Assembly: GCA_034687125.1 (NCBI GenBank)
Contig: JAQGBZ010000092.1
Location: 62,001-126,000 of the forward strand
Direction of reading: 5' to 3'
Source of the DNA: Neelides folsomi
Lineage: Eukaryota > Arthropoda > Collembola > Neelipleona > Neelidae
Length of the DNA: 64,000 bases
A program made the translations under genes and the position numbers. The notes under the pieces are model-generated. The model searched no databases. It saw only the letters and a list, made by a program, of their open reading frames with translations, and had not been told where the DNA came from. The stretch's first letter is position 1. The number at the start of each line of letters is the position of its first letter. Of this stretch, positions 5,606 to 50,510 are shown piece after piece.

Positions 5606-8438
5606 ATGTCCAGAAAGAACAGGAAAAAGGGAAAGAAAGACAAGGAAGGGGAAGATCAGGCCAGGCCTGAAAGACCAGACCTAGGCCAGACGAACTCTGA
5701 CCAAGGCCGGACGAAGACTGACCAACGCCAGACGAAGACTGACCCAAGCCAGACGAAGACTGCCCATAAGCCAGTCGAGGAACCCCCAACTATCTTCGAC
5801 GAGAAGGTTGAGTCAGAGCCAACCCCCAAACAACCAGATGAACCACGATTATCATTCGATAACACCATTCCAATAGAAGTGTCTATCCCATACGAGATAA
5901 TATTCCCTTCAGATGCAAATTATCAATTCGAAATCTCATTTCCACAATCAGTAACGATCGACGGACGAGGGACACCAGTGGATGAAAAATTCATAGCTCA
6001 AATGTTTGCCCAAGCTCAAGGTCAACCTGGTCAATCTCAATCCAATGCTGAAAAGAAAGCTCAAATCAGAGCCCAGGCAGATAACATGTTCGCCAGAATG
6101 CGAGCCAAATCCAAGGCTCAGATCGAAAAGATGCAAACTGATCAATCGGAAGCTCAAGCCCAACTTGGAGCTCAAGCTGGAGCCAAAGCTGCAGCTCTGT
6201 CCCATGCACAAGATATGTTCGAAAAGGCCCATGCTGATGCCCAAGCTAAGGTCAAGGAATGGTTTGAAAACCACGTCAAAACACAAGATGCGCAAGACCA
6301 AGCTCGGGCCCGAGAGATGTTTGAGGTCGAGAGCAAGACACGAGATATCTATGCAACGCTATCCAAATTACAAGTGAAAGAAAGCTTTGATCAGGAAGCC
6401 AAAGCTGAAGCCGACAAGTTGTTTGCAGCCCAATCGAAGGAAAAAGAAATGTTTGTTGCTCAAGCAGTTGCTGAAGAAAAGGGTAATTACGTTCTTTTAT
6501 TAATTTCCATATTCTACTTAATTGAATTATTAGATGAGACTTTTAATCAATTATTAGATGGCATCATATTGAGCGTCTTATGGTCTTATGCAAGTTTCAA
6601 ATTTGCATTGGAAAAATAATCAATTCATTTTTTGAACTATTGGAGTAAAAATTTTACTGTAAAATCAAAAAGATCATTTTTTCATGTTTTTAAATTGATT
6701 CCCTCCCTTAATTATATGTTGTTTAGTCAAATAAATTTTCGAATTTTTTTTGCTTCTCCATAAACACAATAAGACACTCAACTCAATATGATGCATTATA
6801 ATATTTATTTTACATTAATTTATTTTATATTTACAATCAATTATTTTCTGTTTAAAATGTATTTTGAATAACATATTTATTTATTTGACTGATTAGAGTA
6901 TCTTGCTCGTGGACGGCATCGCGGTAACGGTCGCAGTGGCGGAGAATCTACGCGAGGTTTCGCGGGCAGAGGCGCTCAAAATCCTCATTATCGAGAGAAT
7001 GATTCAGATGGTGGAAATAGGGGGGAAAGAAACTCTTGGACTTACAACAGACCTGGTGAACGCGAGGCTCAACCATCTTATGGGAACCATCACTCACGAG
7101 ATTTGACTCAGAATAAAGGACCCTTTCCGAGGAACTCTGGTGGGTTCAACTACTACGGCCAAGAACCACATCCACCTGACCAAGGTCAACTCTGCACTTG
7201 TGGGGATTTTGAAAAGGGACCTGGGAAACCTGGGAGTGGGAAGTGCGATTTTGCTGGTGGGAAAGACGTGCCCGGGCCGTCGGGTGATCAGGCCTATCAC
7301 CCATACTACAACTACGTGGACGCTGGAGACTCTTGGTTTTACGCGGATGAACGCGAGGCGAGGGGAGGAGATTCATATTTGAACTTTTCCTACCCTGAGG
7401 TCAATCAGACGAGGAAGGAAGTGAGTCAGATCGAGAAGCGTCCAAGTGGTCAGTTGGATCTTGAGCGACCCAAGGCTTCCATCTCCATGGCCGACGAGAA
7501 GAGTGGGGAATTGAGCCACAAGGGGTATTTTACTGTTGGCAGTCATATCAGCTGCCGATATCAAGGAGGCGAAGTGGAGGGAGAAGTCGCCGCTTTTCAC
7601 AATACCTCACGCCTTCTTGTCATTCGTAAGAAAAATTATTTTATATATTTATTGGGAAATTATCATTTGTTTAAGATTAAATTTGTTATCATAATTTAAA
7701 TTAGAGCCTTAACGGGGTTTGTGTGTTTATTTAGGTTCTACAGCCACCAATGGCAAGCCTTCCGCTAATGACATTTATGTCATCAATGCCGATTGCGTCG
7801 AAAAACTCAGGATTCATGGACCCACGAACACGGACAATTTGAAGCCGATTGATTTTCACAAAGTAAAATTTATTTACATATCAATATTCAATCAATCAAT
7901 CTTAAAGGCCATTTGATTTATTTAATTATTCATATTTTGTTCAAATAATGTCTTTAAAGTAAATTCCTCATTTGATCCTTTTAATTTTAGCTGGATAAAA
8001 GACGTCAAAAAACTATTGGACTGAAAAAGGCAAGAATCCGGGCTCTATCAGCTGACGTTGCTCCCGAGGGAAGGAAATTGTTCCTTGCTATTACCAAAAC
8101 GTAAAATTTAAATATTTAATTTATTTCTAATTTATATGATCAATTAACTAAATAAATCGTATTTATACTTATAAGTATGTATAATAGCAATATTAATGTA
8201 TATTATTATTCAAACCTTAATCTAAATATTTTTCATAATTGTGAATTGCTAAATTTCAATTTTATTTTCTAGTATTGACGAGGTGGCTTGGGAAGGTGAA
8301 AACATCGTTGTTCTCAACGAAGTGAAGATTTCTCCTCCGTACAAAGTCGAGGACGTTGAAGGAGACAAGGAGGCCTCCGTCGTTCATGTGAAGAAGATTG
8401 TGGACAAGCACTGGAAGGAAAATCCCACGACCAACTAA
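5606..8438 (+). CDS. LSM12: LSM12 homologue with a long N-terminal low-complexity/RGG extension
   Basis: LSM12 proteins bind RNA through an Lsm fold and associate with ataxin-2/poly(A)-binding complexes; a C-terminal AD domain follows. Five exons keep phase: 5606-6482, 6897-7625, 7735-7862, 7991-8100, 8273-8438, giving 669 residues. The last ~170 residues are a complete LSM12: FTVGSHISCRY, GEVEGEVAAF, GKPSANDIYVINADCV, then the AD domain (APEGRKLFLAITKTI, NIVVLNEVKISPPYKVE). Human LSM12 has only 195 residues. Here about 500 residues precede it: a Lys-rich start (MSRKNRKKGKK), tandem Q-T-K-T-D motifs near residues 30-60, a long Ala/Gln-rich predicted helix (about 140-290), then an RGG and Gly/Tyr region (RGRHRGNGRSGG). 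An in-frame ATG at 7487 (MADEKSGELSHKGYFTVG) would give a conventional 180-residue LSM12. A second promoter or mis-joined neighbours remain possible. A poly(A) signal AATAAA lies at 8507. Confidence 0.85.
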
Positions 8439-15085: not shown

Positions 15086-18000
15086 ATGGATCGATCAAGT
15101 AGTGGATGTGCTGTTATCAAACAAGAATATTTATTACCAAATGTTCCATATAATAGGGATAGGGACGATCCGGACGATAGAGATAGAAATGATGGGATTG
15201 TTGAAGGAGATGTTGAAGCAAAAGTTGATGATTTGGACCTTGATGACAAGGTCAAGGACAATGATGAACCTTCTGAAAAGAAGGCGAAATTCAATAAACC
15301 TAGAAATCGAGGCAAGTTTTTTAACAATATTTCAATAAATAATACTTTTTTTATATTTACAACTCAAATTATAATTTGATTTCATTAAAAATTATACAAT
15401 GGCAATTTTTTGATTATTGAATGAAAAGGTAAAATTGTAAGCATTCTACATTGCGCATTGTACTGCTTTTTGAGTGAAGTTCATATAATTATTTAATTTT
15501 AACTTTTACAGGGCAGAATAAGAATCGACCTAAGGTTGCAAAAATTCAGAATGAAGACAAACTTTGCCCTCATTATTACGACGGAATGTCAGAAACTTCT
15601 TGTCCGAAACTCCCTCAGTGCAAGTACATTCATGACGTTAAAAAATATTTGGGTGAGAATTCATAAGATAATAATCGAAAATCGAATCATCGACGTTAAA
15701 AAATGTTATTTGATAATAATCTAAATAATATTAGTATTGTTATTTCGGGCATTTATTTTGTTCATTAAAGTTTTATCGTTCGAATTTCAGATAAAATATC
15801 AGATACAGAAAATACCGGCAAATGCTTCAATTACATTACATATGGGAAATGCAGTCGAGGGCTCTCTTGCCTATTTTACAAAGATCATTTTGATGAAACT
15901 ACTTTGAAGAATATCATTAATGATGTTTTGTGGAGTCGGATGGCACCAGCTTATGAATCGACCCATAAAAACATTATTGAAAGAGATTCCCTTCATAAGC
16001 TTCACAAGAAGACATACGACTTTTCAAGAGTTGAGAAAATCGTGAGTCAATTAGGAAATCAAAATCAGAATTTGACAGAAGTAAAAGATTTCACAAAGAT
16101 GCGACCGGAAGAGCGGAAGAAGCTGAATTGGGAAGATAAGCTTTATTTAGCTCCACTTACAACAGTTGGGAATTTGCCATTTCGTCGACTTTGTGTTGAT
16201 TACGGTGCGGATATTACTTGTTCAGAAATGTCTTTAGCCACATCGATACTCCAAGGCAGCCTTCATGAATTTGCTCTTCAGAGACGCCAGTAAGCGACTC
16301 CAATATTTATTATGTATTTGATTCATGCATATATTGTAGTAGGAATAAATACTATTATATATATGAGAAGTGAAGATGTTTGTTCATTTAATTAATCAAC
16401 TTTATTTTAATTTTAGTTCTTCTGAAAAATTCTGGGGCATTCAATTGTGTGCGAGCAGTGGAATTAATGCGGCGAAAGCTGCAGAAGTTTTAGCAGATAT
16501 TGGAGTCGATTACGATTTTGTTGATCTTAACATGGGATGCCCATTGGATCCTATCTATCGCTCGGTTTGTTTATATATATATTAAAAAATCTTCAATTAA
16601 TTCTTACATTATTTTCCCCCTATAATTGTACTTATAGGTAAAAATTTAATTCATGTTATTAATATAATTTTAGGGTGCAGGCTCTGGTCTCATGTGTAGG
16701 ACAAAGAAATTCGAAAATGTTGTCCAATCAATGGTTAATACTCTAAACGGTGATTGTCCCAAGCCGTTTACTGTGAAAATGAGAAGTGGAATTAAAACCG
16801 ACAAAAACTTTGCCCATACTCTCATCCCATTCTGCAGGGATAACGGAGTCTCAATGGTCACTGTGAGTATTTATTCATCGATGTTTATGACTCTATCAAA
16901 ATTCACAACTGATTAAATTAAATTTAATATTTTTAAATAAAAAAGTTAAAACAAATATTCGATTGGATTATAAACTTTATTTTGCAGGTTCATGGAAGAA
17001 CACGTGAACAACGATATACGAAAACGGCCAATTGGGATTACGTTGCTGAATGTGCCAAAGTGGCGAATCCAATGCCGCTCTTTGGAAATGGGGATGTGTA
17101 CTCTTGGGAAGAATACAACGAGAAGAAAGAAGCAAGCGGAGTAGCTGGGATTATGATCGGAAGAGGAGCTTTGATTAAACCTTGGGTGTTTCAAGAAATC
17201 AAAGAACAACGAGCGATTGACATGAATTCTTCACAAAGATTGGAACTTATTCAAAAGTTTGCTAATTATGGAATTGACCATTGGGGGTCGGATACTCAAG
17301 GTTAAATGAAATATTTAAATATAAATTAATTATTATATTATTATTTTAGGTATGAAAATTTTTAATTTACTATTTATGTACTATATGTCTTTTAATAATA
17401 ACCATTTATGGTATATTTAACCCTTTGAATCGCACCATATCAAATAAACGCAAATAAACTTTCCAAATCCTGGGCTGGCCCCGAAGTGGGGCCACTATTA
17501 AATATACAAAATGCCATAGTTCTGCTTGAAAATTTAAGTTTTACTCCCATAAAATTTATTTATATTTTTTAATTTAAAGCATATTCAAAGGGTTAATATA
17601 AAATATGTAACTTTTAAATGACAGGTGTTGAAAATACACGACGTTTCATGTTGGAATGGCTTTCTTTCTTTCATCGTTATGTTCCTTATGGAATTCTTGA
17701 ACGGACTCCACATCGACTTAATGAAAGACCGCCGAGGTATAGAGGAAGAGATGAAATGGAAACTTTGCTTCATAGCTCAAATTCAGCTGATTGGGTCAAG
17801 ATCAGGTAAATAAGCTATATTCATTTTTGCATTGTTCCTTTATTTACTTTTTAATTTACACAATATATTCTCATCTTATGTTTGAAGAATTTTCCTTTTA
17901 TTTTGACCATCTTTTATTCAGTGAAATGTTTTTGGGCCGTGTTCCACCGACCTTCGCTTTTATGCCGAAGCACAAAGCTAATTCTTGGGGAGACTCTTAA
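15086..18000 (+). CDS. DUS3L: tRNA-dihydrouridine(47) synthase 3 (DUS3L), CCCH-zinc-finger type
   Basis: FMN-dependent enzyme reducing U47 of tRNAs to dihydrouridine. Eight exons keep phase: 15086-15311, 15512-15652, 15791-16289, 16417-16564, 16674-16862, 16988-17300, 17625-17805, 17922-18000, giving 591 residues. The acidic N-terminus precedes two CCCH-like fingers ([13 protein letters not shown] with QCKYIH, and [16 protein letters not shown]). The synthase barrel follows: [21 protein letters not shown], catalytic Cys in LNMGCP (residue about 330), [28 protein letters not shown] and [11 protein letters not shown]. Intron 1 uses a GC donor (GGCAAGT), because reading through to the next GT breaks the frame. 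Intron 6 contains a piggyBac-like MITE (17421-17592). A poly(A) signal AATAAA is at 18134. Confidence 0.94.
17421..17592. mobile_element. piggyBac-like MITE in DUS3L intron 6
   Basis: A 172-bp element bounded by TTAA on both sides (17417-17420 and 17593-17596), with terminal inverted repeats CCCTTTGAAT / ATTCAAAGGG. TTAA duplication plus a CCC start is the piggyBac signature. It contains no coding sequence. Confidence 0.82.
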
Positions 18001-20467: not shown

Positions 20468-21297
20468 TTAATCTCCGTAAGATTTGAGTCTTGCCAAAAT
20501 GGCTTCATCAGGATTTGCATACTTTGACGCCTTCTTTCCCACCACGACCCCCATGACAATATCCGAAAACTCTGGAGTCGACAACCTCAAGGGAAACATC
20601 AATTCTTTGTTCTCCAAAGCGTAGAGCTTCTCTCTCGGCACGCGACATTCGTCTCCTTCAAACATCTTGAGGAATCTGTTCGCAGCCTTCATGAAAGGAT
20701 CCATGTTGTGAACTTTGACAATCCAATACCGACACATATGGACCAAAAGATCTCCCCGAACAAATAAAACCAAATTCGACGGCCCAACAAAAGCTCCCAA
20801 AACGTCTCGTCCAACTTCCCAGAAATATTCCGCTTGGGCTGTTTTTTTAGTTTTCTTTCCTTTCACAGCGGCTTTGAGAAGTTCTTCAAATCCCGTCTTG
20901 GTGATGCTAAGACCCAAAATGCACTCCGAGTCGGGTTTCTTCCCCCAATTGGTTTTGTGGACAGCGGAAGCGAAAGATGTTCGAAGTTCCCATACATCAC
21001 CAAGTTTAGCATGGTTAGTTTTGAGGAAATAGGGCTGGAAGGCATGGGCGAAATAGGCAGGTTTGGATGGACAGGTCGTGTAAAGAACGATAGTCTCTTC
21101 ATCGTACGATGCCACTGTTTTTAATTAAAAAATATTTTATTAATTCTTTAATAATTAATTTAACATTTATTGATCATTTATTTATTGGATTTATTGTTTA
21201 GTAAATTGAATGGTTTGTTTTTCTTACTTATATGATTTCCATGTTTGGGTCGTTCGAGGATTGTGTCTTCAAATGGAACGAATGGAAATGGATACAT
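20468..21297 (-). CDS. uncharacterised family member A (distantly DUF4291-like)
   Basis: First of four paralogues on this strand. Two exons keep phase: 21297-21228 and 21114-20468, giving 238 residues. It starts MYPFPFVPFEDTILERPKHG, then NHIMASYDEETIVLYTTC, AYFAHAFQPYFLK, VWELRTSFASAV, NWGKK, ILGLSITKTGFEELLKAA, FWEVGRDVLGAFVGPSNLVL, LLVHMCRYWIVKVHNM and VPREKLY. The pattern YD-x-x-T-I-x-x-Y, W-x-x-R-T-S-F, W-x-K, L-x-I-T-x-x-G-F-E then W-I-x-x-V-x-x-M resembles bacterial/fungal DUF4291 in order and spacing; this is my reading and needs a profile search. There is no signal peptide or membrane segment, so it is probably cytosolic. The intron interrupts the ATG codon of IMASYDEE, the same place as in member D. 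Function unknown. Confidence 0.85.
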
Positions 21298-24757: not shown

Positions 24758-26379
24758 TCATTTTCCATTATATTTTTTGGGGTTGTATGGATATTGCTTG
24801 GACCTATTTGTAATGTGATTTCTTACAGGAATGATTTGAATTTTCTTTTCTTCTTCTTCATCTTGATATGAATTGATCCTCTCTAAAATCTCATCATCGC
24901 GATTGTGGAATTTGCTTCCTTTCCCCTCTTGCAACAATTGATAGACAATGTCTTGGAATTTGGGTTGATCACATCTAATCCCTACCCTCATGCCGGCATC
25001 AGTAATCATATAAATTTTTTCACGTGGGACACGAAAGTTATCTTGGTGTTGTTCAACAAGGAAGTTGGAAGCGTCCTTCATCACACTTGTCACATTGTGA
25101 ACATTTAGAATTGAATATCGACAGATGTTGACAATGAGTTCCCCGCGGACAAAGAAGATGAGATTGTTGGGACCGTTGAAATTCCCAAATAATTCCCGTC
25201 CAGTTTCCCAAAAATAATCCGCATCATTGTATCCTCTTTTCCTCGCCTTTCCCCGAATGGCAGAAGCAATGAGGTCATCGAAGGTGTCTCGAGAGATTGT
25301 GAGGGCGAGGATGGAGTCATGACCTTCTTTCTTCCCCCAATTACAGGATTGAACAACGGAAGCGAAACAAGTCCGGACCTCCCAAACATCCCCCACTTTA
25401 TGACCGTTGCTCTTGAGGAAATAGGGCTGAAAGGCTTGGGAGAAATAAGCCACTTCTGACTTGCATGTGACATAGACGATGATTGTCTCTTCGTCGAACG
25501 AAGCCATGATGTAATTTCCTGAAATATTCAAAATATTCAATAAATTATCATTATTTTCATTATCAATGGAATACAAATGAGTTTTTATTTTTAAATTTTA
25601 TTTGCTATATTTTCCAATAAATACTTTTAATTTATAATTACAAAGCAAGTATTGGGGCTCACAAACCATATTTTGCACCTTCAAATATTTCCTCAAATTT
25701 TATGGAAAAACTATGGAGAAAATTGCACATTTTTAACTCTTACAAATTATAAAAATATGATATTGTAAATTATATAAAACGTTATCTTTTATTCATATAT
25801 GTATATTATATTTATTGTATAAACATAATTTATAAAATAATTGATCTTTATTAAGTGACAAAATTGATGAAATTTGGATGCGAGGGTCCACATTTACATT
25901 TAGAAAGAGGAGAAGCTTTATTAAGAAGTAATTAAAAGTATAGATAAGTGAAAGAGTTAAAAATGTGCAATTTTCTCCATAGTTTTTCCATAAAATTTGA
26001 AGAAATGTTTGAAGGTTAAAATCTGGTTTGTGAGCCCCAATAACGTTATATTTAAATTTTGGTCAAATAGCTTTATTTAGCATAGGGTTTTTTTGTTTTT
26101 CTTATTGAGTTTTTTTCTTATAAAGGAGTTTGATGAAATTACAAAATAAAACACGACAAATATAGGTTTAAGAGTATGTATATACCATAAATAGTATCGT
26201 AGTAGTGGATAGAAAGTAATACGATTGTCAATTAATGTAAATTGGCTAAGAGTCCAAGTCATAATCATTGGAAATTTAGACTTTAATTTACACTAAAAGG
26301 TTGATTACATAGATTAATTACCGTTTTGAGGACGCTCGAGCAAAGTGTCTTCATATTGAACAAAGGGAAATGGATACAT
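24758..26379 (-). CDS. uncharacterised family member B (distantly DUF4291-like)
   Basis: Paralogue of the gene at 20468-21297. Two exons keep phase: 26379-26322 and 25518-24758, giving 272 residues. Conserved blocks are MYPFPFVQYEDTLLERP, GNYIMASFDEETIIVY, AYFSQAFQPYFLKSN, VWEVRTCFASVV, NWGKKEGHDSILALTISRD, FWETGRELFGNFNGPNNLIF, ICRYSILNVHNV and VPREKIY. A charged C-terminal tail (DEEEEKKIQ, then a basic Arg/Lys/Asn-rich end) is absent from member A. The 803-bp intron 25519-26321 carries a 389-bp MITE (25652-26040), so its length is mostly transposon. The first intron sits a few bases from its position in A and D. No catalytic motif of a known enzyme class was recognised. Confidence 0.85.
25652..26040. 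mobile_element. MITE with long inverted repeats in intron of member B
   Basis: A 389-bp element starting TTGGGGCTCACAAACCA and ending TGGTTTGTGAGCCCCAA, flanked by TA at 25650-25651 and 26041-26042. The arms of about 90 bp stay largely complementary (CTATGGAGAAAATTGCACAT against ATGTGCAATTTTCTCCATAG). TA flanks suggest Tc1/mariner. No coding capacity. Confidence 0.85.
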
Positions 26380-37875: not shown

Positions 37876-38276
37876 CTAATAATTATTTGTGATTCTTATT
37901 TATTGCAGTTATTGAGATTAATAAATTAATCTCAATTTTGATTATTTAATGCTTGTGTGAATTTATTATTCATAGCAAGTATCAATTGCATCTCTTTTTA
38001 ATGTATCCTAAAGAGCATTTACATCTTGGGAATCATCTCTTTCTCTCTATCTCTTCAGTTAGGATCTTTATTCAGTGAGGCTGTTATGTCCTAACACACT
38101 AATCATTTAAACAGGTTTTGCCTATAGCCCCAAGGAGATCAAAAGGGAATCTGCTTGTTACGTTATACCACACACTATTGAACATGAGCATTAACAAGGT
38201 TCTACAATAATCAGTTCGTTATTCATTACTGTTTTTCGATTTATAATTAAAGTTTTTTTAATGGGTGTATTATGTA

Positions 38277-39641
38277 GACCAAAAAAAGCTGGTCTTATTG
38301 CACTAATGCAGGGTCTCAACCCAACTCATTTCATCCCGCCGAGAATATCAAATTACGTCACAGTAGCTCATTGCAGTTCAGAATGCATTCAACAATATTT
38401 ACCATCAGGTTCTACAAGAAGGAATCAATATTTTTAATGTCCTTCTTCATTCTCACGTTTTAGGTTTAATTTTTTTTTAAAAAAATGTGTAAATTATTTG
38501 CTTTATAATTTCTAAATGCTATATTATTTTTATGTTAATTTTGATTTTTAAATTCTAGGAAGGAAATTGAAAGCGAGACATTTTAGAGGGAAGGAGGAAC
38601 TTGAATGATGATAACTACGATTTTGATTTTCAGCAAAATCGACCTTTACAAAAGGAAGTGATGGTTTATCCTGGAGCTCATATGATTGTCGGTGAGTTTA
38701 ACTTTTAATTTATTTTTGTAAAATCAGATTTTATTTACTTAAGTTTGAAGTTTCCGATATTTATTTATATATTTATTTTGTTAAAATTTAAAAACATTTT
38801 TATGAAGATATACAGAATGCAATTATGATTCTTCAAATAGAGGCAATGTGACAATAGGAGGAGAAAGTTAAAAAAGGCTTAAATATTTACAATTATTATT
38901 ATTCACTATTTAGCTCAAGAAATTAGTAATTTATAAAATTTAAATTGCAATTTAGGGACAAATGAAGAAATGTGCCAAGGACTGATGTGGTATTATCCGA
39001 GGAGAAAGGATTACTTAATGATATGTATGAGTAATTATCCCAATGAGCCTTTTTTTCAAGATTTTGGCATTGAGGAAGTAGATTGGTATGAAAAGCATTA
39101 AATTTATTATTTTTCTTTATTATAAATCGATATATAAATTATAGAATTCATCCATTAATATTGATACGAAATAATGATATTTGGTGAATTTTTGATTTTT
39201 AGGGATACGAGCTTTTATAATCCTATTATTACGAAGCCAGAATACATGAAAGACAAACGTGTGAGTGAAGTTCTCAATGAAGTTGAGTGGGCTAAATGGA
39301 CTGAAAGGGAAAAACTCGATTATGGAGAAAAGCTTCGTCATTCCCCACATGAAAGCCAATGCTTTTCTGAATTTAATGTTTTAAAGATTCACCAAGAAGT
39401 GGAAAATCCACATTGGGTCAGCTATCCAGAGATAGACAAGGAATACATAAAACCAGACTTTTGTCAATATGAAGTAACGACAACAGAAAGATCAACTACG
39501 AAGAAAAACCGAGGAGATTCAACGACTGAAAAAAGCGACGAAGATTCAACAACTGATAAAAGGGAAAATTCGGCACACTTGGCGAAATCAATCCCGGCTA
39601 TTTTAATGTTTATTATTTTACCTTTAAGTAGATTTGTATAA
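38277..39641 (+). pseudogene. broken 3' half of a MOXD1/DBH-like copper monooxygenase
   Basis: Exons correspond one-to-one with the last five exons of a module of the gene at 41419-48984. Similarity includes PKKAGLIAL, TVAHCSSECIQQYLP, FNVLLHSHVLG (the CuM His-x-His), DDNYDFDFQQNRPLQKEVM, ECNYDSS, TNEEMCQGLMWYYPRRK (the CuM Met) and FGIEEV. The frame is broken between YLP and FNVLL (about 38415-38430) and again before DDNYDF, where GAATGATGA interrupts the exon (about 38603-38612). Upstream exons for the signal peptide, DOMON domain and CuH site were not found. The last exon (about 39203-39641) stays open and ends with a Ser/Thr-rich stalk and a hydrophobic GPI-type tail (SIPAILMFIILPLSRFV). 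It is most likely a decayed tandem copy; expression of the last exon cannot be excluded. Confidence 0.8.
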
Positions 39642-41418: not shown

Positions 41419-44400
41419 ATGAAAATTGTTTTTGCTCTTTTCTTCATCATAGCATCATGTTATGGTGAAGGAAGACAAGAAACATTGGACCCGAGAGTTG
41501 TCTTAGGATGGGAAGTGAAAGGAGAAGAAATCCATTTTGACCTCTCCATGAAAGTCAGTGGATTTAATAATTATTGGTATGGGTTTGGAGTTGCTCCTAA
41601 AGGATCCATGAGGAATGCGGATATTCTCATAATGGTCAATGAAACAAATTACCAGGTAAGAAACGCTGCTTTACTACCATTTTTATTTGCAATAATAATA
41701 ATTATTATTAAATAGGATCGACACGGTCCTGAAAATGCTGCTGGAGCATTTCCTAGCATTGATGATCATCAGGATTGGATCGTATATGAAAAAATTATTC
41801 ATGAAGATTTCACAAAGTTCACATTTTCAAGAAAACTTGAAACTTGCGACGATCAAGATTATCCAATCAAGGTAATACTTTTATATTTAGATTTAATGCA
41901 AAAAATTCGATTAGAAAGCTAACTCTAATAAATTTTAAACATTAAATTGTGAAACTTATTAAAATGTAATTTAGCAATCAGACACTATAAATGTAATTTG
42001 GGCATTCGGGGAATACAAAAATGAAGGTGGTGTGGAAGTCTTTTCAAAACATTTAAATGAAAATAGAGGAACCAAATCAATGAATCTGTTGGATAAACCA
42101 AATCCTCCAATTGACTTAGCTGAGTAATACAAAATATAAAGATATTGAATGTTATTGTATGCTATTAGTATGTTTGAAATTTGAGGCAATTTAAAAAATT
42201 AATGGTAAAAGTATTAATTTGACTTTCAATTTATAATTTTTGTAATTTTATAGATTTGAAATGTGGCCTGTTCGAGTTCGAGACAAACTTCCAGCTAAAC
42301 CCACGAGTTATTGGTGCACAATTCATAAAAAAACGTTCGCAAATAAAAGCCATCTAATTGGGGTGAATCCTCTAACTACTTTTAAACAATATATTCTTAA
42401 ACAAATTTCTTACTTTATTATACTTCGTTTTAAATAATAATGCTTTATAATACTTTATTATTTATTAGTTAAAACTTTTAAAAGTGTATAATTCTTTATT
42501 GTGAAAAAAATGTGTAAAATACGTAATTTTTAGTTTGATGCGTACATTCCGGATGAAGTGGCCCGACGTCACACTCATCATTTCGTTGTCAACAAATGCA
42601 CTCCACCGAGAGGACAAGAAATGGATTATTTTGAACAATTTTTGGATTTGCCAGGAGGAGATTGCGGTTCTGAAACCCATATGCCTTATTTTATTTATTG
42701 CCAAACTTTCATTTATGTTTGGGCCGTTGGTGGAAAAGTTTGTAAATATTATAAATAATTAAAATTATAAGTAATCAATTTAATTAACTAACATGTAATG
42801 GAATATTAGCATTAGCTTTAAATCATAAACTAAGGATTTTTTATAACAGGTAACATATTTAATATTTGCATTGGCTGATTTAGATGATGCTTCTTCCTGA
42901 AGATATGGGCCTGGCAGTAGGAGACCAAGGAGAAGATGAATATTTGGTTTTCCAAATCCATTACGATAATCCTGATATGTTACCAGGAATCGTTTATGAA
43001 ACTGGATTAGATATCTATTACACAGAGGAACTTAGGTTTGGATTTTTCGATATAGCAATATAAAAAAGATTGATATTCAAGGATATAAATAAATTATGTA
43101 TTCAATCATCTCATTAGAGAAAAGGAAGTGGGGATAATGTCTGTAATGCATGACGTGTCAATGGGTCATTTAATTGCTCCTGAAGTAAAGTCATGGACAA
43201 CGGTTGGGCATTGTGATCCAAAATGCACTCGAGAACATTTGCCAGAAACCGGAATTACAATCTTCAATGCATTCCTTCACTCACATTTGAGAGGTGTTTA
43301 TAATTTAATAAAATATTAAAATCATTTAAAAATTTATTTTATATATGTAACATATTATGAAAATACATTATTAAATTATTTCAATTGATTCCTCCTAACT
43401 TAATATACTTAATATTTTTATCGATATTTAGGCCGACAAATTAAAGTTCACCACTATCGTGGAGATGTGGAGCTCCCATGGTTGGCATATGATGACAATT
43501 ACGATTTTGATTTCCAACAAAATCGCCCACTTCCAAATGAAATTCAATTGATGCCTGGAGATCAATTGGCAGTCGGTATGAAATGATAATACTTTACATT
43601 TGTTATTATCAACAAGTAAACGAATTTAAAATATAATTCATTGTAGAATGCACTTATGACACAATAGGCAAAAAGGAAGTAACAATTGGAGGCGAAGGTA
43701 TTCTCTTTTAATAACAACAAACTTGATCAAAATGTACAATATTACCTACAATTAATATACATAAAAACCTAAATGAATTTACAACAACTTAAATGATTAA
43801 TTATTATTTATAATATTTTTATATCATTATAATATTTTTATTTTGATGCAATAGGAACTTATGAGGAAATGTGTCAAGCCCTCATTTGGTATTATCCAAA
43901 GAAAAGAGGAGATCTACATGTTTGCGGAAGCACTTTCTATCCATTTGAGAGGATTTATAGAGATAGATTTGGAATTCAGGAATTTGTGTAATTAAATAAA
44001 TATTTGATGATTTAATTAAAAAATAATCCTCATTATCAGGGCTGTGAAGTTTAGGTATGAAAATCGAGAAGATGTGTATGTAAATATGTATGAGATTTTT
44101 CGAGAATTTTAGCAGTTTATATCAATTATACATCTTTCAAGTTTTCAGTAGTAAAAGACATTCGATTTGGAGCTAGGACAGATTTATGCATAGAGAAACT
44201 CCTTTCAACATCGACAGATGTTAAAAGGAGTAACTCGATTAGGATCAGACAAATTACATTGAAAATTGACTCCAGATATTTTAGAATATTATTTCCAAAT
44301 CAGAGTTCTTTTGAAAAACTTTTATTAAATTTCTCCAATACAGCAAATCCAAAGGCAATTTAAGATAAGGATATTTATGTACTCTCGTTAGAAAGTTAGC

Positions 44401-47400
44401 TCTTGAGTTCCCGCCTTTTAGAACATCATTTAGATAACCCTAATTTAAACCTATCCCAATTAAAACTAATGTTAAACTAAATGCTGTTCTAAAAGCGGGA
44501 ACTCAAGTGCTAACTTTCAAACGAGAGTAGTTTTCAAATTTTTACATGTAGTGAGCACCTTAAGAGAGAAAAGGTAGAAATCGATCACTAATTGTTTCTT
44601 TAAAACATCAAATATTCCATAAAAATTAATATTTATTATAATTCTACTATAATTTAATTAAATAAACTATATATTGTTCCTAAAAGTTGGAAAATATATA
44701 TGAAAACATATATTTATTTAGCGAATATGTACGAATATGTATGAATATGTAAAATATGTATGAAAAACTGTGTTTTTGAGGTCTATGAGATCGTGTACAG
44801 CCAAAACCATCGCCTTCGATTTTAAGGAATAAAAAATATGTATGCACCTAAACTTCACAGCCCTGCTTATTATGAAAAAATTATATCAGATTTATATTTT
44901 TAGTTATGCCCTAAACTGAAAAGTTTAATGCTAATTTTGATTTTCAATTAAAGGGAAAATCCCGATGACTATTACAATCCAATTGTCCTTAAGCCCGAAA
45001 ACATGACCAATAAAAGATATATTGAAATTCTAAACGAACATGATTGGGCTGCTTGGACTGACCAAGACAAGAAGGATTTTGAAAATGAATTGAGATATGA
45101 ACCCCATGCTACGCAATGCTTCATCAATTACGAAAACACTGAACAAGAAAGATTTAGAAAATTCTATGGAAAGACCTATCAAGAAATCGAGGACTGGATT
45201 ACATACCCAAAAATTGAAAAGTCGTACGTGCCCCCAAATGTATGCAAAGCTGAAGAAGAAACCGGAAATCGTCAAGAAGAGGAATTGGATCCAAGAGTCA
45301 TTTTGGGTTGGGAAGTCGTTGGAAACGAAATTCGTTTTGATATTTCAATGAATGTCACTGGATTTAATAATTATTGGTATGGATTTGGAGTTTCTTCAAA
45401 GGGAACAATGAGGAATGCGGATATCATCACAATCGTTGACGTAGACAATTATCAAGTGAGGAATTTTATAATGAAAATTTAATTTACATTATATTAAAAA
45501 ATAGTTTGTTAATTTACATTTAATGAATAGGATCGACATGGTCCTATCAATTCAAATGGAGCATTCCCCAATATCGATCAACATCCAGATTGGGTTGTTA
45601 ATGAAAAAACTGTTGAAGGAGAATTCACTAAGTTCAAATTCTCACGAAAACTTGATACATGCGACGATGAAGATTACCCAATTACTGTATGTAAACAATG
45701 TTGAAAAAATTGATTACAAATTATTTAATTAACCTCTACAAAATATTAAAAGGCTTAACATTGTGATATTATCAACAATACATTTGTTATAAATTTTATT
45801 TAATTAATTTTAGGCGTCTGATACTTTAAATGTTATTTGGGCATTTGGGGAATACAAAAACGGCAACGGAGTGGAAACATTTTCGATACATTTGCCCCAA
45901 AACAAAGGAACACGATCGATGAATCTTCTTGATAAACCAAATCCTCCTATTGATTTATCGGAGTGAGTAAAATGTCATTTTTTAATTGGAATTGTTATTG
46001 TGAAATTATTCGCATTTGTACTAAATTACAAATTTTATATGAAATATATGATTAATCATTTTAGATATTATATGTGGCCAATTCGAGTGAAAGATGAAGT
46101 CCCAGCTCAAGTTACAAGTTACTATTGCACAATTCACAAAAAAACGTTTGAAGGAAAGCATCATATTATTGGGGTAAATACCCGCTTACTATTTTAATTA
46201 ATTGATACTTTGTGAATTAAAAAGTATTTCATTTTTCTTATAGTTTGATGCTTACATTCCCGATGATCTAGCAAGGCGTCACACACATCATTTCGTTGTA
46301 ACTAAATGCGTCCCACCCAGAGGAGAAGGAATGGATTATTTTGAACAATTTATTGGCCAACCTGGAGGAGATTGCAATGAACATGAACAAATGTTATACC
46401 ATGCTCATTGCAATTCATTTGTTTATGTTTGGGCCGTTGGTGGGAAAGTAAGTTGAAATATTTTTATTACTTACATTTATTATATGATAAATTTTATTAT
46501 ACATACTATAGTTGGAATTGAATTTAGTTTTTTATTCGTGTTTATTCGTGACCAACAGTTTTTATTTAAAATTTTCAGATGTTGCTACTTCCTGAAGATA
46601 TGGGACTTCCAGTTGGAGAAGATAACGCAGATGAATATTTGGTATTCCAAATTCATTATGACAATCCTACATCTACTCCTGGAATTCAATATGAAACTGG
46701 ATTAAATGTTTATTATTCTAATGTGACAAGGTTATTAATTATTGTAATTTATCCTTTATAATGGATATGGGACCTGTTGGGAAAAAACGGGGTCCTAATA
46801 TTTATTAATTTAAGTTTCTAGAAAATTATGAATTTTAATTTATTTGAACTTCAATTAAAATTATAGTTACTAGAGGAATTCATCAAATTTTTTGTAAAGT
46901 TGAATTGAACTTTTTTGAAACGCTGGATAATTTCCAACGGAATAATCTACCCAATCTGATTTGTTGAGCTGTCTTTTTGAGAAAATTATATTCGGAAGAT
47001 GTTTAATTCTTTTAACTTGGAAGAGTAAATTAAAAAAAGAATAGTGGAAATGAGAAAATGCTTAAATGTCCCTTCAAAATTATTCACAAAACATAACGGT
47101 TGATAAACTAAGATCGATATCTTATATCGTTTTAACGTTATATTAGTCAATGTAGTATTTCCCCTATTTGTTGAAATATTTGATGTATCGTTTATTTTTA
47201 CTGAAGATCAAATAAATTAAAATTCATAGTTCTCTAGAAACTTAAATTAATAAATACTAGGACCCCGTTTTTTCCCAACAGGTCCCATATGTATTCTTCC
47301 TATTGAGAATTTGTCTCAGAATGTAAAAAATTATAATTTTATAACGCATCAATTAAGATATATTGTTTTGTAGAGAGAAAGACGTGGGAATGATGGTCGT

Positions 47401-48984
47401 TAGTCATGATGTGTCAATGGGTCATTTAATTGTACCTGAAGCAGAATCTTGGACTACTTCTGGACACTGTGATTCAAAATGCAGTGAAGCGCATTTGCCA
47501 CAAGACGGAGTTACCATCTTTAACGTTTTCCTTCATTCTCATTTAAGAGGTCAAAAAATTTCGCATATTTAATAACATTTACTGTATACATAATTAAGTT
47601 ATTAAGATTTATCCCTATTTGAAATTAAAGGTAGGAAATTAAAGCTTCGTCATTTTCGTGGAGAAGCCGAACATCCCTGGATCGCACACGACGACAATTA
47701 TGATTTTAATTTCCAGCAAAATCGGCCGCTTCAAAATGAAATCAAGTTTATGCCAGGGGATCATTTGACAACTGGTATGAAAGAATTGGTCAATGACTTT
47801 TCACCTTAAAATATGATCCTAAGTGTAAGCAATTCATAATAAGTACCATATATTAAATAATTTTTAATGTTTGATTAGAATGTACTTTTGATACCATTGG
47901 AAAGAAGGAAGTAACAATTGGAGGAGAAGGTATTTAAAAATTAGAGATAAAATTTTAAATTAAATTACTACATTTTTAAATAAACTACAATACTACAACT
48001 GAAATAGTCCTCTTACTTTCCCTATCTAATCTAATCTTGACTATATTACCTACTTATATTATTTATTAAAGGCACTCATGAAGAAATGTGTCAAGCACTC
48101 ATTTGGTATTATCCAAGAAAAAGAGGAGATCTCCACGTTTGCAGCAGCACGTTTTACCCATTTGAAAAAATTTATAAAGATCGATTTTTAATTGAAGAAT
48201 TTAACTGGTAAATTGACTAATATTAACATTATTTATTATGATTAAACGAATAATTAATTTTAAATTATTTTTATGTGTATTATATTTTATGTAAATTAAA
48301 ATCAAATAATACACATAACAATTAAATATTAACATTATTCTACAAAAATATTATTTTTGGATATTATTTAATCATAATAAATAATGTTAATATTTAATTG
48401 TTATGTGTATTATTTGATTTTAATTTACATAAAATATAATACACATAAAATTAACATAAAATTAATTATTCGTGAATTTGTAATGAAAATAGATTTTATT
48501 AAATAGGACGTCACTGGACTCTTATTACAATCCTACAGTAATCTTGCCTAAAATTTGGGAAGGTATGAGATACAGCGAAGTACTGAACAAACACGATTGG
48601 GATTCTTGGACTAAAGAGAAAAAGAAGGAGTTTGAAGATCAATTGAGATATGAACCCCACGCTTCCCAATGCTACACCAACGATGACAATTCAGACCCAG
48701 AGATATTCAGGAAATTCAATGGGAAAAATGACGAAGAGATTGTTTGGGTGACATATCCGAAAATCGAGAAAGAATATGTCAAGCCAGACATTTGTGCTAT
48801 TGAAGATGGAGAGACAACGACTAACAGTGATGTTTCAACGACAAACGAAGATTCAACGACTAACAGTGATGTTTCAACGACAAACGAAGATTCAACTACT
48901 GAAAAGGGAGGGAATTTGGCTCCTGAAAAATCAATTCCTGTCGTATTAACGCTTATTCTTCTAACCTTCATTAATTTCCTTTAA
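41419..48984 (+). CDS. Double-module MOXD1/DBH-like copper monooxygenase, secreted, probably GPI-anchored
   Basis: Copper type II ascorbate-dependent monooxygenase with two complete modules in one frame, 1,255 residues in 21 exons: 41419-41655, 41716-41871, 41975-42123, 42254-42362, 42534-42737, 42884-43035, 43118-43293, 43432-43575, 43647-43697, 43855-43987, 44954-45455, 45531-45686, 45814-45962, 46065-46173, 46244-46447, 46579-46730, 47374-47549, 47631-47774, 47879-47929, 48072-48207, 48507-48984. It starts with a signal peptide (MKIVFALFFIIASCYG). Each module has a DOMON domain (LDPRVxLGWEV...NNYWYGFGV), a CuH pair HTHHFVV (His about 232-233; 823-824), CuM His-x-His in LHSHLRG (about 390/392; 981/983) and Met in EEMCQALIWYYP (about 465; 1056). 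Exon 11 joins the tail of module 1 (to about residue 600) to the start of module 2 without a stop or signal peptide. The C-terminus has a Thr/Ser-rich repeated stalk and a hydrophobic tail. Paralogous exon lengths are identical except one. Confidence 0.92.
44037..44865. mobile_element. hAT-like element in the inter-module intron
   Basis: An 829-bp element inside intron 43988-44953. Terminal inverted repeats are CAGGGCTGTGAAGTTTAGGT / ACCTAAACTTCACAGCCCTG. The 8-bp flanks CTCATTAT (44029-44036) and CTTATTAT (44866-44873) differ at one base. It contains a second MITE (44382-44527) and no transposase frame. Without it the intron would be about 130 bp, like the others. Confidence 0.88.
44382..44527. 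mobile_element. MITE nested in the hAT-like element
   Basis: A 146-bp element flanked by TA (44380-44381, 44528-44529). Inverted ends CTCTCGTTAGAAAGTTAGC / CTAACTTTCAAACGAGAG continue through GAGTTCCCGC..TTTAGAACA / TGTTCTAAAAGCGGGAACTC. It inserted after the outer element and is non-coding. Confidence 0.85.
46768..47287. mobile_element. long-TIR MITE in module-2 intron
   Basis: A 520-bp element in intron 46731-47373, flanked by TA on both sides. Ends TGGGACCTGTTGGGAAAAAA / TTTTTTCCCAACAGGTCCCA; the complementary arms run about 90 bp (to AATTTTAATTTATTTGA). The equivalent intron of module 1 is only 82 bp. Non-coding. Confidence 0.87.
48269..48450. repeat. perfect 70-bp inverted repeat in the last intron of the monooxygenase gene
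   Basis: Arms 48269-48338 and 48381-48450 are exact reverse complements by my base-by-base comparison, with a 42-base spacer. Outside, CGAATAATTAATTTT (about 48247) pairs again with AAAATTAATTATTCG (about 48459). A second overlapping pair (about 48222-48246 with 48368-48392) allows an alternative fold. The intron transcript could form a long hairpin. No target duplication was found. Confidence 0.85.
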
Positions 48985-49448: not shown

Positions 49449-50510
49449 TTATTTGTTCGTGTTTTGAAGTTGTGCACTTGCTTCAATGAGCTCTTTAATA
49501 CTTTCCTCATCGTCAAACTCATCATCATCGAAATCAAAAGGTTCATCGGCCCTCACTTCATTATCAGCATAAGTGTAAGCGACGTATTCTTTTTTCTGTC
49601 TACTAGCCAGCAAATGATCCATGTCAGAATCTTCAAATCCCAATGGTTGAAGCCCCAAACCTCGTCTGTAGCCCGGTTCCAAATTGTAAGGACGTTCATA
49701 TGGAACCATGATCAATTCTGGATGTTTTTCTCGAATGAATTCCTTTGCAGCTTTGACGAAGACAGTCATGTGAACGGCCTTTTGAACCCAATATTTGCAC
49801 ATGTGGTTTAATAATTCCCCACGGATCCGAAGAACAAAATGATTTGGGCCAACGAAGGTTCCGAAAAGATCTTTTCCCTTTTCCCATGAAAATCCGGCTT
49901 CACTTGGAGTATTTTGTTGTTGGCGTTGAGGAGTTGGACGTTGAAGAAGAGCTGCTTTCAAAAGCTCTTCGAATCCAAATCGGCAAATCGAAACGGCCAG
50001 AATAGCTTCATTTTCACCTTTTTTACCCCAACGAGATGCGATGACTGCCGATGAGAAGGACTAAGAATTTAATTGATCATATTTTATATTTTACACTGTG
50101 GATTAACTAACATTTATTCAGTTGGAGGTTACAATGAGATTTTGTAAATCTTATATTCTAATAATGTTATATAATTAAATTTATTCACCGTTCTGAGCTC
50201 CCAACTTTTCCCAATTTTAAAATGATTGCTTTTGAGAAATCCTGGCTGATAAGATTGGGCAAAATGAGCGACGTTTGCACGGCAAAGAGTGTAGAGAACA
50301 ACTGTTTTTTCTTCATATGATGCCACTGTAAGATTTATAAGTTTTTATAAACTGATAAACTTTGTTTAAGAAATGAGCTCTTGATTTGATCAATACAATG
50401 TTAAAATATTATTAAGTAATGCGTTGATCACACTTACTGATATGATTTCCACAATCTGGTCTTTCTATGAGAGATTCCTCATATGAGGAAAACGCAAATG
50501 GCCACGTCAT
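49449..50510 (-). CDS. uncharacterised family member D (distantly DUF4291-like)
   Basis: Fourth paralogue. Three exons keep phase: 50510-50438, 50325-50189, 50060-49449, giving 273 residues. Conserved blocks are MTWPFAFSSYEESLIERP, GNHIMASYEEKTVVLYTLC, AHFAQSYQPGFLKSN, WELRTSFSSAV, RWGKKGENEAILAVSICRFG, FSWEKGKDLFGTFVGPNHFV, LLNHMCKYWVQKAVHM and VPYERPY. It has a Gln/Pro/Thr-rich insert (RPTPQRQQQ) and an acidic C-terminal extension (DFDDDEFDDEESIKELIE) that the others lack. The first intron splits the ATG codon before ASY exactly as in member A, strong evidence of common ancestry. The acidic tail contrasts with the basic tail of B and C, suggesting diverged partners. Function unknown. Confidence 0.85.

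Follow-up and report, generated by a model that had tools for sequence, protein, structure and literature searches.

A springtail gene encoding two complete DOMON/copper monooxygenase modules in one frame, probably fused from tandem neighbors

Background

Monooxygenases of the MOXD1/DBH-like class normally carry one DOMON domain and one two-copper core per chain. A locus in the springtail Neelides folsomi has two of each in a single reading frame, which raises the questions of whether it is one gene in practice, how two enzyme copies came to share a chain, and what such a chain might do. We know of no substrate for MOXD1-type enzymes. From this point on, the window refers to the whole stretch of 64,000 nucleotides that was analyzed (positions 62001-126000 of its contig). 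Genome-wide searches covered 75.1 Mb in 840 contigs. The arthropod nature of this genome is reflected in 28 overlapping hits of a (TTAGG)5 pattern in 6 contigs, 39 matches to the cuticle-protein family Chitin_bind_4, and a COX1 free of stops across the 471 residues translated with mitochondrial code 5. Two weak PBP_GOBP matches, three weak 7tm_6 matches and one NRPS condensation match under the cut-off did not point to any particular order.

Results and discussion

One gene with two modules

The splice model, rebuilt from the window sequence, describes a gene of 21 exons with a 3,768-bp coding sequence (Table 1). All 20 introns are of the GT-AG type, and the only stop is the terminal one. Together with the Pfam matches given below, this model bears out the original prediction, made from the DNA without database searches, of a single gene with two DOMON/copper monooxygenase modules in frame and a product of 1,255 residues.

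Table 1. Coordinates of the bimodular gene, its parts and the neighboring relic (positions in the window)
Feature	Position	Strand	Evidence
Third-copy relic, 5'-truncated and frameshifted, with its own GPI-type tail	38276..39641	+	Similarity; two frameshifts in splice model; tree
Complete coding region, bimodular DOMON/copper monooxygenase gene	41419..48984	+	20/20 GT-AG introns, length a multiple of 3, terminal stop only
Signal peptide, about residues 1-17	41419..41469	+	Sequence, hydropathy peak 3.5; predicted cleavage site
Module 1, exons 1 to 11 (part): DOMON, two-copper core and C-terminal region, up to Cys601	41485..45245	+	Splice model, Pfam, ligands H232 H233 H311 H390 H392 M465
Intron 10, 966 bp, with inverted-repeat insertion (arms 44027-44056 / 44846-44875)	43988..44953	+	Splice model, repeat scan
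Exon 11, fusion exon: module 1 tail, linker and module 2 DOMON start	44954..45455	+	Single open frame; full exon has one match in genome
13-residue linker KAEEETGNRQEEE	45246..45284	+	Splice model, frame reading; RQEE part like N-terminus of paralog L046 (RQEEQLD)
Module 2, exon 11 (part) to last exon: DOMON, two-copper core and C-terminal region, up to Cys1193	45285..48795	+	Splice model, Pfam, ligands H824 H825 H903 H982 H984 M1057
643-bp intron with inverted-repeat element (arms 46760-46870 / 47185-47295, 111 nt, 89%)	46731..47373	+	Splice model, repeat scan
Ser/Thr-rich stalk and hydrophobic GPI-type tail	48796..48981	+	Sequence; putative GPI assignment

The repeated internal exons of module 1 measure 156, 149, 109, 204, 152, 176, 144, 51 and 133 bp. 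In module 2, eight of the nine have the same lengths and the last has 136 bp instead of 133, exactly the pattern that had been predicted. Because single-module paralogs share part of this pattern (109 and 204 bp in L046; 144 bp in L044, L045, L047, L048 and L050; 152 bp in L044 and L049), the equal lengths represent the layout of the ancestral gene and are not peculiar to modules 1 and 2. A comparison of the module 1 introns with those of module 2 revealed no clear similarity except for short AT-rich matches. MITE-like inverted-repeat elements occur in three introns (44027-44875, 46760-47295 and 48218-48501) and make up much of their length.

Both modules look intact

DOMON, Cu2_monooxygen and Cu2_monoox_C are each matched by Pfam in two stretches of the protein, above the cut-off of each family. 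The two modules are 68% identical (400 of 584 residues). All six copper ligands occur in both (Table 1), such that the three CuH and three CuM ligands of the MOXD1/DBH-like class are present in each module. These correspond to H262, H263 and H333, and to H412, H414 and M487, in DBH, whose ligand numbering and disulfides were taken for comparison from part of the published structural report (PMC4846438). The same 12 cysteines are found in both modules at equal places in the alignment. Judged by these residues, both modules look intact.

Divergence between the modules, as calculated by the NG86 (Nei-Gojobori) method over 578 codons, is 0.20 for dN and 1.39 for dS, giving a ratio of about 0.14 that is rough and an average of both modules, as dS is near saturation and infinite in one of six windows of the comparison. 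Near-saturated dS together with low dN/dS indicates that the duplication is old and that both halves have been under constraint. Of 42 columns that are invariant in 13 homologs from the same genome, 38 are kept in each module; for the 90 that are invariant in the seven same-subfamily paralogs, the counts are 79 in module 1 and 77 in module 2.

Of these 90 family-conserved columns, 16 are altered in at least one module, eight of them in one module only (three in module 1 and five in module 2). Examples, in module 1 numbering, are P296A and R401H on the module 1 side and T373S and L409H on that of module 2. Such one-sided changes suggest that one module may have undergone a shift in activity. 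They would also fit a scheme in which a single module is catalytic and the other has become a structural or regulatory partner, a reading that we find decidedly unlikely given that each module retains all six copper ligands, the shared set of 12 cysteines and 38 of the 42 invariant columns, and that dN is well below dS in the five of six windows with finite dS. Of the changes that can be polarized, 23 fall to module 1 and 13 to module 2, 137 more being unassignable, and this difference suggests that module 1 may have changed somewhat more.

Relationship to known enzymes and to paralogs

Each module shares its domain set, copper ligands and cysteines with MOXD1 and the DBH-like monooxygenases, as well as the signal peptide that opens the chain. 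The difference lies in number, with two full sets per chain here, whereas one core each is found in the seven same-subfamily paralogs that were modeled (L044-L050, at 38-43% identity). DBH (PDB 4zel) is the top solved-structure match for both modules, at 189 bits for module 1 and 171 bits for module 2. Another gene in the genome, L051, is of the DBH type and scores 384.5 bits against the same structure, which implies that the bimodular gene is not the closest DBH relative that this genome contains. The PHM core of PAM gives a weaker match, which reflects the shared two-copper core and includes no DOMON. PAM is a copper monooxygenase that likewise shares its chain with a second enzyme, but that enzyme is an unrelated lyase, whereas the second unit here is a copy of the first.

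The genome contains at least 45 Cu2_monoox_C matches and at least 78 matches to module 2, the bimodular gene and the relic described below included. Eighteen paralog regions, of about 4-6 kb each, were compared by counting three pieces of the core. Each piece occurs exactly once in 13 of the 18 regions; L060 has two of them once, L053 has one of them once, and L052, L056 and L057 have none. In the window, the same pieces occur two, three and three times, belonging to the two modules and the relic. No second bimodular gene was seen in these fetched stretches, all 13 whole-core regions having a single core. In addition to L044-L050, the subfamily includes a partial eighth member, L053, near L049. 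L054, L055 and L059 form a separate clade, while L058 and L061 fall outside the subfamily with an unsettled placement. The splice model of L046 holds one stop, which may be a model error, and the C-terminal ends of several paralog models are unreliable. Broad search terms applied to part of the literature returned no bimodular MOXD1 or DBH in titles or the opening lines of abstracts; earlier records may exist.

A relic third copy beside the fused pair

About 1.8 kb upstream of the bimodular gene, and absent from the original prediction, is what is left of a third copy, its 3' part. The last exon of this relic is readable and ends in a stalk and hydrophobic tail of its own, while its 5' exons have no match within the 64-kb window. 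Two trees were computed, both with the 13 paralog regions and neither with L052, L056 and L057 (PHM-like, low score) or the partial L060. In the 15-row tree, which omits the relic, modules 1 and 2 are sisters with support of 100/100 and branch lengths of 0.27 and 0.21. In the 17-row tree, to which L053 and the relic were added, the two modules again pair (94/96) and the relic is sister to the pair (98/97). The presence of the relic beside the fused pair, in conjunction with its sister position, implies that three or more copies once stood in tandem here and that the unfused form had a GPI-type tail. Such tails end both the relic and module 2, as expected for the unfused gene.

The fusion exon

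Exon 11, in which one module passes into the next, has the boundaries that had been predicted, with an acceptor ending in ttaaag and a donor starting with gtgagg. No stops interrupt its coding frame, whereas the other two frames contain 17 and 6. The DNA separating the modules consists of this exon only, with no intergenic DNA. Similarity at the DNA level between exon 11 and exon 1 starts at 45284 (equivalent to 41484), where the DOMON starts. Just ahead of this point is the sequence GNRQEEE, which resembles the mature start of module 1 (GEGRQET) as well as the start of paralog L046 (RQEEQLD). From the other direction, protein similarity between the C-terminal part of module 1 and its module 2 counterpart extends through the final cysteine. 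In copy 1, in other words, the break falls past the final cysteine within the last exon, and in copy 2 it falls past the signal peptide within the first exon. Two full copies would have between these points a Ser/Thr stalk and GPI signal, a stop, intergenic DNA and a promoter, and then a start codon and a signal peptide, all missing at the junction. The full exon has one match in the genome; beyond it, parts of the exon match only within the gene itself, at its exon 1 (79%) and its last exon (75%). Viral contigs scanned with exon 11 contained no relative.

The joining of the modules had been attributed to unequal crossover. An in-frame fusion of neighboring copies is upheld by the junction, but unequal crossover in the form proposed is not, since no homology links the two breakpoints. 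We infer instead that the fusing event was a deletion between tandem neighbors, which is simpler; unequal crossover may have been the source of the tandem array itself. The relic is a sign that several copies once stood side by side at this locus, a setting in which an assembly could conceivably join two gene copies by mistake. Such an artifact is extremely improbable here. The join preserves the frame inside an exon of 502 bp and sits past the last cysteine of one module and ahead of the next one's mature start, and the copies that it connects are only about 73% identical in coding DNA.

One chain or two

A single signal peptide opens module 1 (a 9-residue hydropathy peak of 3.5 at 41419) and a single tail, putatively of the GPI type by sequence, closes module 2, in agreement with the original prediction. 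By sequence, the chain has an N-terminal signal peptide and a C-terminal tail of small residues followed by a hydrophobic stretch, which makes it a candidate GPI-anchored protein. It had also been claimed that no stop, promoter or signal peptide lies between the modules. The claim stands for the stop, as the frame is open, and probably for the signal peptide, as the alternatives to the rebuilt model offer only weak candidates.

These alternatives matter because the locus could be two genes in practice, if alternative transcription or splicing used exon 11 differently and gave separate module 1 and module 2 proteins. Intron 10 is long, its inverted-repeat insertion could hold a promoter, and 42 combinations of ATG, donor and acceptor in 43600-45284 provide weak alternative first exons for exon 11. 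The best of them, which uses the donor GTTATG, reaches a hydropathy of 2.0, however, compared with 3.5 in the real signal peptide. The ATG at 45003, which is the only in-frame one in exon 11 ahead of DOMON 2, yields no signal peptide, and module 1 by itself would have neither stop nor tail unless it were spliced differently. From the weakness of these candidates, secretion of module 2 on its own appears unlikely, and we consider the division into two genes quite improbable.

A single chain might instead be a precursor, cut in the linker to release two free single-module enzymes, one soluble and the other GPI-anchored. The linker is short and polar, as might suit such processing, but by direct reading it has no dibasic site, and it resembles the leftover native ends of both copies and not an added cleavage site; this alternative is also unlikely.

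The reading that we consider likely is that a tandem pair of MOXD1-like genes was fused by an in-frame deletion, and that its product is a single chain, secreted and probably GPI-anchored, in which two DOMON domains and two intact two-copper cores stand in series. Of this, the DNA itself displays an uninterrupted frame, both sets of domains with their ligands and cysteines, low dN/dS between the modules, one signal peptide and one tail, and the adjoining relic. The process would have started from a tandem pair of such genes in an arthropod. In the upstream copy the deletion would have begun just past the codon for the last cysteine, and in the downstream copy it would have ended just past the signal-peptide codons, with the reading frame preserved across it. 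The whole chain would then be made, secreted and probably GPI-anchored. Each core would be expected to bind two coppers and to hydroxylate with ascorbate, as in DBH and PHM, and at the cell surface the tethered modules would stay together, forming an intramolecular pseudo-dimer. A secreted, GPI-anchored chain with four copper sites would be the parsimonious reading of the gene.

Possible functions of a tethered pair

DBH acts as a dimer or tetramer, with interchain C528/C530 disulfides in its C-terminal helical domain, and the crystal dimer of the human enzyme is asymmetric, having one core open and one closed (PMC4846438, in part). No Cys that could be a counterpart of C528/C530 lies within Cys483-Cys559 of module 1 or Cys1075-Cys1152 of module 2, the segments presumed to be equivalent. 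This cysteine comparison covers modules 1 and 2, as the L051 model stops before the corresponding segment. Lack of a counterpart for the interchain cysteines means that a DBH-like dimer is not assured. It also means that the peptide tether could supply the missing link, and a covalent dimer is plausible. We suggest that, if MOXD1-type enzymes pair at all, the tether, with a linker of only 13 residues, may replace the disulfide link of DBH.

Carried further, this would make the product an obligate two-headed monooxygenase, in which fusion has replaced a disulfide-linked homodimer. The diverged cores of the resulting tethered heterodimer would either act on two substrates one after the other or form an asymmetric pair, one open and one closed like the crystal dimer of DBH. 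We regard this extension as rather unlikely. A natural pair in a single chain would offer a test of cooperation between the halves, as each site could be disabled separately. The locus is also a clean catch of a fusion between tandem neighbors, with a relic third copy and its own tail alongside, although as a gene-family event the fusion is otherwise ordinary.

As to the wider family, a springtail study, in part, counts DBH-like monooxygenases/cytochrome P450s with the larger of the expanded families in which members respond to stress (PMC5490193), and part of a report on Artemia includes a putative DBH-like monooxygenase among anoxia-responsive genes (PMC8406910).

Other features of the window

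A match to dihydrouridine synthase at 15904-16293 (+) scores 18.8 bits, below the cut-off of 20.4, and an LSM12 LSM-domain match is found at 7103-7699 (+) with 40.3 bits. A protein at 49449-49961 (-), which has no Pfam match, is similar by eye to a pair of DUF4291 proteins encoded at 20468-21115 (-) and 24758-25576 (-), which score 48.3 and 49.6 bits against a cut-off of 27.
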